Below are positions 1,789 through 12,827 of a stretch of DNA of 22,528 nucleotides, in pieces. Position 1 is the first letter of the stretch, and each line of letters begins with the position of its first letter. Under the pieces are notes generated by a model. That model made no database searches. It saw nothing but the letters and a program-made list of their open reading frames with translations, and was not told where the DNA came from. The position numbers and the translations under genes were made by a program. Source of the stretch: a virus; the IMG/VR virus record IMGVR_UViG_3300021349_000011, positions 1 through 22,528 of that record, one strand, 5' to 3'.

Positions 1789-2286
1789 TTAAAGCACTGT
1801 TTTCATTAGTTTAGTTATCATTTTTTGTGCATATTCAAACGATGCACGGTCTTTTTCTTTATCTTCATCCTCCAATACCTGGTATGCCAGGACAAAAACC
1901 CGCGCTTTGGCTGCTGGCTCCAACATGCCCCGACGCTTGACCAGCTCCTGTTCTATCTGTTCTATCGCCAGTTTCAGGCGGTTGACATCCACCGAAGACG
2001 CGGTAATCGCTTCCTGAGGCGTTATCTCCCTCTCTACAGGCTTTATCTCCCTCTCTGAAGGATTTGTGCTGTAGTCAGCCATCAACATGGGGCCTTTGCC
2101 CGTCAATAACCAATTCGTATTAACTCCCGCATTAGATATTCCAGCCAGTGCTGTTGATCCAGGTTCACTTGATCCTGCTTCATATTTTTTATATGAACTT
2201 AGGCCAATACAAAATTTGGTTGATGCTTCTGTCTGAGACAGCCCTAATTTTGTCCTTACCTCTCGTAATCTCTCATAAATACTCAT
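1789..2286 (-). CDS. Phage repressor, Cro/CI-type HTH without peptidase domain
   Basis: The 165-residue protein starts MSIYERLREVRTKLG and carries a Xre/Cro HTH in residues 5-60 (LGLSQTEASTKFCIGLSSYK, ending KKYEAG). A variable part with the internal repeat EREIKPVEREI and a helical C-terminal region (VNRLKLAIEQIEQELVKRR) follow. It lacks an S24/LexA-type peptidase, so RecA-driven self-cleavage is not expected. It is divergent from the early operon and abuts the operator palindromes, the position of Mu c. A TTG start at 2328 would add 14 residues, but that extension runs through the operator and reads poorly, so I chose the ATG at 2286. The ribosome binding site is weak. Confidence 0.85.
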   Translation of the reverse strand: MSIYERLREVRTKLGLSQTEASTKFCIGLSSYKKYEAGSSEPGSTALAGISNAGVNTNWLLTGKGPMLMADYSTNPSEREIKPVEREITPQEAITASSVDVNRLKLAIEQIEQELVKRRGMLEPAAKARVFVLAYQVLEDEDKEKDRASFEYAQKMITKLMKTVL

Positions 2287-8183: not shown

Positions 8184-8527
8184 AAGCGCCGAATATTTAC
8201 CAGTACCGGCGGCACAGCAATTATCTGAAAAAAACGGCCCTTGATCAGGCCATGGCACGGGTCGCGATAGCCGAACTGGTAGAGCTTGGGTTTGTAGTAA
8301 CCCGGTTTAGACTGGGTGCCAGTGCGTCCATTACCGTCGGGGGTATGCCGTCCGGCTGCCCTGCCCCGTTGCAGTTTGTCCCCATGGGGTTCGGCTTTAA
8401 CGGCCGGTTCCGGTATACCACCTTTGCCGCCGCGTTTGGGGATTGGACGGTGGAATGGCACAAGCGGATTTATCCGGCGCGGATAACACCAAAGGGAACC
8501 GAACCGAGGATAAGACATTATGGCTAA
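8180..8527 (+). CDS. Small early protein, unknown
   Basis: 115 residues. The N-terminal half is helical (LDQAMARVAIAELVELGFVV) and the rest is Gly/Pro/aromatic-rich (GGMPSGCPAPLQFVPMGFGF; TTFAAAFGDWTVEWHKR). ATGA overlap with the preceding gene and an 8-bp overlap with the following one place it in the same translational chain. I recognise no domain. Confidence 0.6.
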   Translation: MKAPNIYQYRRHSNYLKKTALDQAMARVAIAELVELGFVVTRFRLGASASITVGGMPSGCPAPLQFVPMGFGFNGRFRYTTFAAAFGDWTVEWHKRIYPARITPKGTEPRIRHYG

Positions 8528-11692: not shown

Positions 11693-11704
11693 TTATATTT
11701 GACA

Positions 11705-11813
11705 AAAATGATACCGGGGGCTACTCTAATCGAGCACTGGCAAAATCCAGTGCACGGGTTTGACATCCCGGTATCATCACGGCACAGGCCGCTTCTAGCG
11801 GTTTTTTTTGTGC
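11705..11813 (+). ncRNA. c4-like: c4-type antisense RNA with terminator
   Basis: The segment can fold as phage c4 RNA. ATGATACCGGG (11708-11718) pairs perfectly with CCCGGTATCAT (11767-11777) and encloses the hairpin GCACTGG-CAAAAT-CCAGTGC (11734-11753). A terminator follows: CCGC-TTCTA-GCGG and eight T (11789-11809). Bases 11756-11780 are complementary, with small bulges, to 11873-11893 in the leader of the antirepressor gene (blocks GTGATG, CCGG, ATGTCA, ACCC). In P1/P7, c4 RNA pairs with the icd-ant leader and blocks ant expression. A TTGACA at 11699 overlaps the 5' edge, so the RNA is more likely cut from the longer early transcript than started here. Confidence 0.75.
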
Positions 11814-11965
11814 TATCGTTCCATCCCCTCATACTGTCGGGCTGGGCGGGGCAGTCGAAAGACTGGCCGGTCGTGATGCCGGTATGTCAACCCTGTTCAG
11901 TCCGGCGCCCAATGTTTGACATCATATCGCCGGTTATTAATTTACATCACGGAAACATATCATGA
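11708..11965 (+). CDS. Icd/Ash-like reading frame overlapping the c4 RNA and leading into the antirepressor
   Basis: The 85-residue frame contains GFDIPVSSRHRPLLAVFFVL, followed by SFHPL, and then GWAGQSKDWPVVMPVCQP. This arrangement, a run before an A-x-FFV-x-x-F-x-P motif and then a GQ/GW-rich section, is the one seen in Ash / Icd-like frames of P4- and P1-type phages. Icd of P1 inhibits host cell division. The frame ends with a TGA overlapping the antirepressor ATG (ATGA). Whether translation starts at 11708, at GTG 11810 or at ATG 11876 is unclear, and the similarity may reflect the conserved RNA more than the protein. Confidence 0.45.
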   Translation: MIPGATLIEHWQNPVHGFDIPVSSRHRPLLAVFFVLSFHPLILSGWAGQSKDWPVVMPVCQPCSVRRPMFDIISPVINLHHGNIS

Positions 11966-12582
11966 ATACTCAATTACAAACCTTCCAGTTTCAATCTCAT
12001 CAATTAACTGTCGTTGCTAACGAAGACGGCTCGTCATGGTTTATTGCTAAAGAAGTCGCTGAAATTCTTGAATATAGCGATGCTGAAGCAATGACTAGGA
12101 AGCTAGACAGTGATGAAATTCAAAACCTACAAATCGTAGGTTTTGGAAATCGCGGTGTAAATATCATCAATGAATCCGGCTTATGGTCGTCGGTACTAAG
12201 AAGTACGAAGCCGGAAGCTATAACATTTAAAAAATGGCTTACTGCTGAAGTGCTTCCTGCTATCCGCAAAACCGGCAGTTACACCGCCAACCAAAAAGCA
12301 GCCCCCCTACGCGATTACGATGCCCTGCAAAACAAATATATCGCCTTGTTGGAAGAGGACAATGCCCGGCTGAAAGCGCTGGAAACACCAGTAGCAACAC
12401 GGGTAGAAGAGGCCAGGTTTAGACAACACCGAGGCTGGACAGCGGCTCAGGATAAGGAAATGCTGGACTTGAACGAGCAAGGTCTGGGCTGGACGGCTAT
12501 CGGTGTAAAGATTGGGCGCAGTCGCGAGAATTGTCGCTATCGCTATAATATACTGATGACCCAACCGGGCGGTGCGCTATGA
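11962..12582 (+). CDS. ant: BRO-N family phage antirepressor
   Basis: 206 residues. Residues 1-105 are a BRO-N domain: FQSHQLTVVANEDGSSWFIA, KEVAEILEYSD, VNIINESGLWSSVLRSTKPE and FKKWLTAEVLPAIRKTG. A coiled stretch follows (LQNKYIALLEEDNARLKALE). The C-terminal 45 residues (HRGWTAAQDKEMLDLNEQGL, GWTAIGVKIGRSRENC) resemble a SANT/Myb-like helix-turn-helix. Antirepressors bind and inactivate phage repressors. Given a repressor here without a peptidase domain, this protein is the likely induction trigger, held in check by the c4-type RNA upstream. Confidence 0.85.
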   Translation: MNTQLQTFQFQSHQLTVVANEDGSSWFIAKEVAEILEYSDAEAMTRKLDSDEIQNLQIVGFGNRGVNIINESGLWSSVLRSTKPEAITFKKWLTAEVLPAIRKTGSYTANQKAAPLRDYDALQNKYIALLEEDNARLKALETPVATRVEEARFRQHRGWTAAQDKEMLDLNEQGLGWTAIGVKIGRSRENCRYRYNILMTQPGGAL

Positions 12583-12767
12583 GCCCCGCCTTTGATGCCC
12601 TGGACCGACTGCAAACCACGGCCACCTGCTTTCGGGCGGTGGAGTCGTTAATGTTGCCCAGTGAAGATAGTCATTTGATTGACCGCGAAGCCTTGGCTAT
12701 GTTGATCGGCTTTTTAAATACCGAACACAACAAGGCCTTGGCGGCGCTGTCGGCACTGATACTGTAA
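12579..12767 (+). CDS. Small helical protein after the antirepressor
   Basis: 62 residues (MSPAFDALDRLQTTATCFRA and, later, LIDREALAMLIGFLNTEHNK), all helical. ATGA overlap with ant and its position just before the terminator indicate it is the last gene of the early operon. No family is recognised. Confidence 0.6.
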   Translation: MSPAFDALDRLQTTATCFRAVESLMLPSEDSHLIDREALAMLIGFLNTEHNKALAALSALIL

Positions 12768-12803: not shown

Positions 12804-12827
12804 AACCCCGCTGATGCGGGGTTTTTT
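12804..12827 (+). terminator. Rho-independent terminator of the early operon
   Basis: AACCCCGC-TGAT-GCGGGGTT with a six-T run (12822-12827). It is a strong GC stem with a tetraloop, placed 36 bp after the last early gene. Confidence 0.9.

Follow-up and report, generated by a model that had tools for sequence, protein, structure and literature searches.

RNase P trims RNAs of the C4 family to about 77 nt, and in phage P1 the icd gene lies between C4 and ant. The CI RNA of P4 ends the transcription of replication genes, with no antirepressor known to take part. The work on P1 and P7, as summarised previously, describes a C4 RNA matured by RNase P, in which the element a' gives specificity and the element b' acts at the ribosome site (PMC5320573). 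In Gifsy-1, IsrK has been described together with STnc1160 and likened to the SeqA/CI RNA of P4, and it was found to activate translation in trans as well (PMC4825925). A further pair of isrK and C4, from Xylella, is only a table entry in a study that analysed neither its function nor its host element (PMC12189769).

The covariance models of the two RNA families place isrK and C4 in tandem in Gifsy-1 (79.3 and 69.0 bits), in P4 (60.8 and 74.9 bits), and in P1 (35.1 and 68.8 bits, the isrK-like match being below the 50-bit cut-off). The a1/a'/a2 triad can be read in the P1 sequence. In P4 (L199), the C4 match at 8420-8507 is downstream of the isrK match, at the place expected for the CI RNA, and this match to the C4 model would place P1 C4 and P4 CI RNA in one family. 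Here, we analysed a 22,528-base IMG/VR record (hereafter the window), a Mu-like phage by gene content, and find in it a genuine isrK-C4-ant module, i.e., a switch of the kind known from P1, P4, and Gifsy-1 in a new phage setting. In the literature that we searched, with incomplete coverage, C4 had not been reported from any Mu-like phage.

An isrK-C4-ant module in a Mu-like phage

The initial annotation of the window, made from the sequence, had described a transposable Mu-like phage, and this is borne out by Pfam and PHROGs searches, which matched MuA, MuB, Ner, GemA, Mor, Gp27, and Portal_Mu, Mu-type head genes included. A gene of non-phage look at 326-1468, left of the repressor, resembles ATP-grasp genes (the name comes from reading its sequence, without a family search) and suggests that the window includes host DNA as well as the left end of the phage, in which case it would represent an integrated prophage.

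Ahead of a gene for a Bro-N antirepressor, isrK and C4 stand in tandem, both above the Rfam cut-offs of 50 bits for the former and a gathering score of 45 for the latter (Table 1). A c4-type RNA preceding an antirepressor gene had indeed been proposed, and both parts of the proposal hold: the search with the C4 covariance model gave a match above the gathering score, and the gene is of the antirepressor type by its matches to PF02498 (70.8 bits) and phrog_130 (150.5 bits). The reading frame of ant is intact, with a start codon at 11962 and a weak Shine-Dalgarno-like CGGA. The isrK part, whose family name refers to Hfq binding, has the features of the family, namely the covariance match, three hairpins, and a terminator; when folded in isolation it forms hairpin I (11734-11753), a second hairpin (II) whose loop contains a1, and the terminator hairpin followed by a T-run. 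In the C4 stem, 14 of the 24 consensus pairs show compensatory changes among 12 sequences. The putative promoter was found by eye and predicts a transcription start near 11733; it is not listed by an automatic promoter scan, and its -10 element fits at only four of six positions. Related loci have an A/T-rich -10-like motif at the matching position.

Table 1. Features of the module, of its 3' neighbourhood, and of the repressor gene in the window.
Feature	Coordinates	Strand	Evidence
Phage repressor, HTH only, 165 aa (presumed target of Ant)	1789..2286	-	HTH_3 5.9e-08
Putative module promoter	11699..11727	+	TTGACA 11699-11704, 17 nt, TACTCT 11722-11727; by eye
c4-a1b1 target RNA	11721..11774	+	Rfam RF03163, 43.8 bits, just under the gathering score of 46.7
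isrK-family RNA, SeqA-like leader	11734..11808	+	Rfam RF01394, 59.1 bits, E 1.5e-10
Target a1 TTGACAT	11760..11766	+	exact complement of C4 a'
Target b1 CATCACG	11775..11781	+	exact complement of C4 b'
isrK intrinsic terminator	11786..11808	+	terminator scan; Rfam isrK 3' hairpin and T-run
C4 antisense RNA (P1 C4 / P4 CI RNA family)	11830..11912	+	Rfam RF01695, 64.0 bits, E 1.5e-10
C4 loop b' CGTGATG	11872..11878	+	7-nt complement to both b1 and b2
C4 loop a' ATGTCAA, specificity element	11884..11890	+	complement in a1 and a2
Hairpin CCGGCG/CGCCGG displaying a2	11902..11933	+	sequence; fold of 11895-11965
Target a2 TTGACAT	11916..11922	+	exact complement of a'
Target b2 CATCACG	11945..11951	+	sequence; adjoins Shine-Dalgarno-like CGGA of ant
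ant, Bro-N antirepressor, Myb/SANT-like C-terminus, 206 aa	11962..12582	+	PF02498 1.5e-19; phrog_130 Ant 1.5e-43
62-aa ORF overlapping the end of ant	12579..12767	+	44% identical counterpart in L002
Second terminator-like hairpin CCCCGC-TGAT-GCGGGG-TTTTTT, gap between ant operon and mor	12806..12827	+	sequence; similar hairpin in L002

The roles within the module are the reverse of those first assigned. The leader had been read as the c4 RNA itself, folded by an 11-bp long-range stem, a 7-bp hairpin, and a terminator, with 11873-11893 as its target. The 7-bp hairpin (11734-11753) and the terminator (11786-11808) exist, as parts of the isrK/c4-a1b1 target and not of c4; the antisense RNA is at 11830-11912, its target is at 11756-11781, and what had been taken for the target, at 11873-11893, is the antisense loop of C4 itself. 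The complementarity between 11756-11780 and 11873-11893 is itself well founded, with a duplex of -36.9 kcal/mol; when the target was shuffled 1000 times with its dinucleotides preserved, this value was never reached. The initial annotation had overlooked another target, a2/b2, located at the ribosome site of ant. Both a' and b' match it, as they do the first target, over exactly 7 nt, and the 5' arm of the hairpin that displays a2 is shared with the stem that closes C4, of which it is the 3' arm. The a2/b2 duplex taken alone is only marginal against shuffles (49/1000); the support for this target comes from covariation (see below).

The 11-bp stem is a real inverted repeat (arms at about 11708-11718 and 11767-11777), specific to the window and not a part of the RNA device: across 127 loci, the stems at this place are no longer than those in mismatched pairs of loci. 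Since its left arm falls in the spacer between the -35 and -10 elements of the putative promoter, upstream of the predicted start, the stem could form only in transcripts entering from upstream. The motif ATACCGG was also considered, as an operator, and rejected; it occurs 11 times against 2.6 expected, but the copies are scattered and three of them fall within the stem or the pairing elements.

The initial annotation had further proposed a P1-type c4-icd-ant operon, in which an Icd-like protein would be encoded at 11699-11965. A frame of 88 aa is open across isrK and C4 and ends over the start codon of ant, but it has no match in Pfam, PHROGs, or NCBIfam, its tblastn matches are at chance level, its first listed start codon is within the -35 region, and it is broken in L002, the nearest relative bearing the cassette. 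Furthermore, the P1 a2/b2 site is 3' of c4, at the place where the window has ant itself. We thus regard such an operon as very improbable. At the other end of the module, the 62-aa ORF has no Pfam or PHROGs family match, and may belong to the cassette.

Covariation of the antisense RNA and its targets

We searched viral contigs with an isrK pattern and genomes of the Rhodocyclaceae family with the C4 family, and then built a C4 model of our own. The resulting 158 C4 matches were reduced to 141 by exact dereplication, to 130 by excluding those without the CAA of a', and to 128 by requiring at least 200 nt of upstream sequence. The exact 7-nt complement of a locus's own a' is found upstream (a1) in 127 of the 128 loci and downstream (a2) in 126 of them. 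When a differing a' from another locus is used instead, the rates drop to 1.9% and 0.5%, respectively. The 126 loci with both targets have 13 specificity types of a', and since many loci are related, independent changes are closer in number to the types than to the loci. The matches of b' with b1, and with b2 over the 126 loci, exceed those of all 300 permutations. The pattern used to choose the viral loci fixes the first three letters of a1 and leaves the other four free; the genome loci, chosen by C4 alone, fit the a1/a'/a2 pairing equally well. The complementarity between antisense RNA and target is therefore kept in relatives, with a1/a'/a2 and b1/b'/b2 covarying across 126-128 loci.

The Mu-like carriers partake in this pattern. 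The window (TTGACAT/ATGTCAA) and L002 (TTGGTCT/AGACCAA) have different specificities and have each kept both targets; in L022, the match at b2 is poor. This bears on the idea that the cassette is a decayed remnant, acquired with neighbouring DNA and devoid of function. Its optional presence in Mu-like phages would fit such an origin, but ant is intact, all six pairing elements of the window match exactly, and L002 keeps its own with a different sequence; we consider decay very improbable. Beyond the individual locus, the covariation across the 128 loci offers a simple test of type, in which the ant genes that a C4 is expected to silence are predicted by reading the 7 nt of its a' loop.

An optional cassette and its possible regulation

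Besides the window, C4 accompanies a Bro-N gene in three Mu-like phages or fragments: the short contigs L002 and L022, and a prophage of genome G199. The proteins of L002 are 44% (ant), 57% (Mor), and 72% (Gp27) identical to those of the window. L022 is Mu-like by its matches to Gp27 and to the large terminase, and its Mor-like gene has no Pfam match. The G199 prophage encodes GemA, Mor, C4, a Bro-N-like gene slightly under the Pfam cut-off, a lysozyme, and a Mu portal. A candidate for a fifth carrier, L181 of genome G157, has C4 and a Mor-like gene; it was not counted because its terminase is of the lambda GpA type. Protein scans of the viral contigs with single Mor and MuA sequences gave nothing usable, and a search with an alignment of two Mor sequences returned L002 alone. 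The cassette is 5' of mor in the window and L002, and 3' of mor, or of the Mor-like gene, in L022 and G199. It is absent from 11 complete Mu-like phages, Mu included, and from the closest relative that we found, of Rhodocyclaceae (L125/L206), which is 52% identical in MuA, 62% in MuB, and 70% in Mor. We conclude that isrK-C4-ant is an optional cassette that occurs in phages with differing life styles. At the corresponding position, about 3900-6960 of L125, there are other small genes, as in a variable cassette site before mor. Among the Rhodocyclaceae-family genomes sampled, 36 of 199 have C4 over the cut-off; the usual number of matches is one, and two genomes, G095 (L129) and G191 (L128), have 17 and 15.

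The presumed adversary of Ant is the repressor, which, as initially described, lacks a detectable peptidase domain: Pfam matches HTH_3 and no Peptidase_S24 (LexA-like) domain. An AlphaFold model of this protein computed without an alignment had a pLDDT of 45.7, too poor to serve as evidence. The motif GTCGCAAT occurs four times in the gap between the repressor and ner, only at 2287-2345 and not near 11700, and two of its copies form a perfect palindrome with 17-nt arms (2317-2350). These copies, at 2287-2350, are likely operators. Since the candidate operators are found only by the repressor, the module does not look repressor-controlled. Antisense control had been proposed to act instead of SOS cleavage, which is unsupported: the repressor of L125/L206 is homologous to that of the window and likewise has no detectable peptidase domain, and as this phage also lacks isrK-C4-ant, the two traits are uncoupled. 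Of the device initially proposed, antisense control of the c4/ant type in a transposable phage is supported; the assignment of c4, the Icd frame, and the replacement of SOS are not.

We assign a probability of about 0.8 to the reading of the locus as an isrK-C4-ant immunity module of the kind of P1 immI, P4 CI RNA, and Gifsy-1 IsrK. Both RNA families, the two targets, the covariation of a1/a'/a2 and b1/b'/b2, and the identities of the genes are seen here; from these we infer where transcription starts, the processing of the RNA, the control of termination, the block of translation, and the partner of Ant, as follows: 1) transcription from the promoter at about 11699-11727 would yield a leader mostly ending at the isrK terminator (11808); 2) read-through would produce a precursor, to be processed to the C4 RNA (about 11830-11912); 3) in the lysogen, constitutive production of C4 would keep ant off; 4) C4 would pair in trans with a1/b1 of the leader, favouring termination; 5) it would also pair with a2/b2 in front of ant, which would block the ribosome site and prevent synthesis of the antirepressor; 6) the same C4 should silence the ant of an incoming phage with the same a'/b' type; and 7) when C4 runs short, Ant would be made and would be expected to antagonise the repressor (1789-2286), opening the early operon.

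It may be that isrK has an effect of another sign than in this scheme. If isrK acted in trans by binding the C4 stretch of a long transcript, it would free the ribosome site and turn ant on, a mechanism demonstrated with IsrK-orf45-anrP of Gifsy-1 (PMC4825925). Pairing in cis between the a1b1 of isrK and C4 is predicted for the full leader, and isrK has a terminator of its own, both of which are compatible with activation. Yet a2/b2 is directly at ant in the window, with no orf45-like frame between, the frames that span C4 are not conserved in L002, and b' is complementary to the region of the ant ribosome site, which fits C4 as an inhibitor. We therefore judge activation by isrK unlikely.

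Another possibility, which we consider less likely than not, concerns other phages: a mobile cassette might mainly silence the ant of superinfecting phages of the same type, or its Ant might hit the repressors of other prophages, with self-control being secondary. The optional occurrence of the cassette, its two positions relative to mor, and the presence in L022 of an a' and a fitting b' common with L012, L031, and L048 point in this direction, but the window has preserved its own a2/b2, i.e., self-control is maintained, and its a' type is the sole one of its kind in the set of 128 loci. It is conceivable, in a similarly speculative vein, that the a'/b' pair is an immunity code transferable across phages whose modes of replication and packaging are unrelated, with Mu-like transposing phages among them. 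If true, a Mu-like prophage would show cross-immunity, at the ant level, to unrelated phages or satellites of the same type, and this would be predicted from matches of the 7-nt a' plus b' alone, e.g., for L022 with the three loci just named.

Comparison with known antisense modules

The immunity module in the window, as we read it, places the antisense device of P1, P4, and Gifsy-1 in transposable phages. The sar RNA of P22 is similar in being an antisense RNA that blocks the translation of an antirepressor, and differs in the RNA and in the arrangement of genes (PMC12197685). The De Donno strain of Xylella fastidiosa has the same two Rfam families, isrK and C4, about 45 nt apart (PMC12189769). 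The CI RNA of P4, with seqA and seqC, is likewise an antisense RNA with targets on both sides (PMC4825925), although the spacing between isrK and C4 is wider than in the window. The isrK-STnc1160/orf45-anrP locus of Gifsy-1 resembles the window in having isrK about 20-25 nt 5' of C4, a terminator between them, and a regulatory gene on the 3' side. However, Gifsy-1 is lambdoid and the translation of anrP is coupled to that of orf45 (PMC4825925), whereas no such frame is supported in the window. Finally, the immI operon (c4-icd-ant) of P1 and P7 has the same C4 family, with a1/b1 upstream, a2/b2 downstream, and an antirepressor gene on the 3' side, and in it, too, a' sets the specificity and b' acts at the ribosome site (PMC5320573). 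P1 differs in being a plasmid prophage that has many operators and a different antirepressor (PMC8546580), whereas in the window, a Mu-like phage whose Ant is of the Bro-N type, a2/b2 is directly at ant and no icd gene separates ant from C4.
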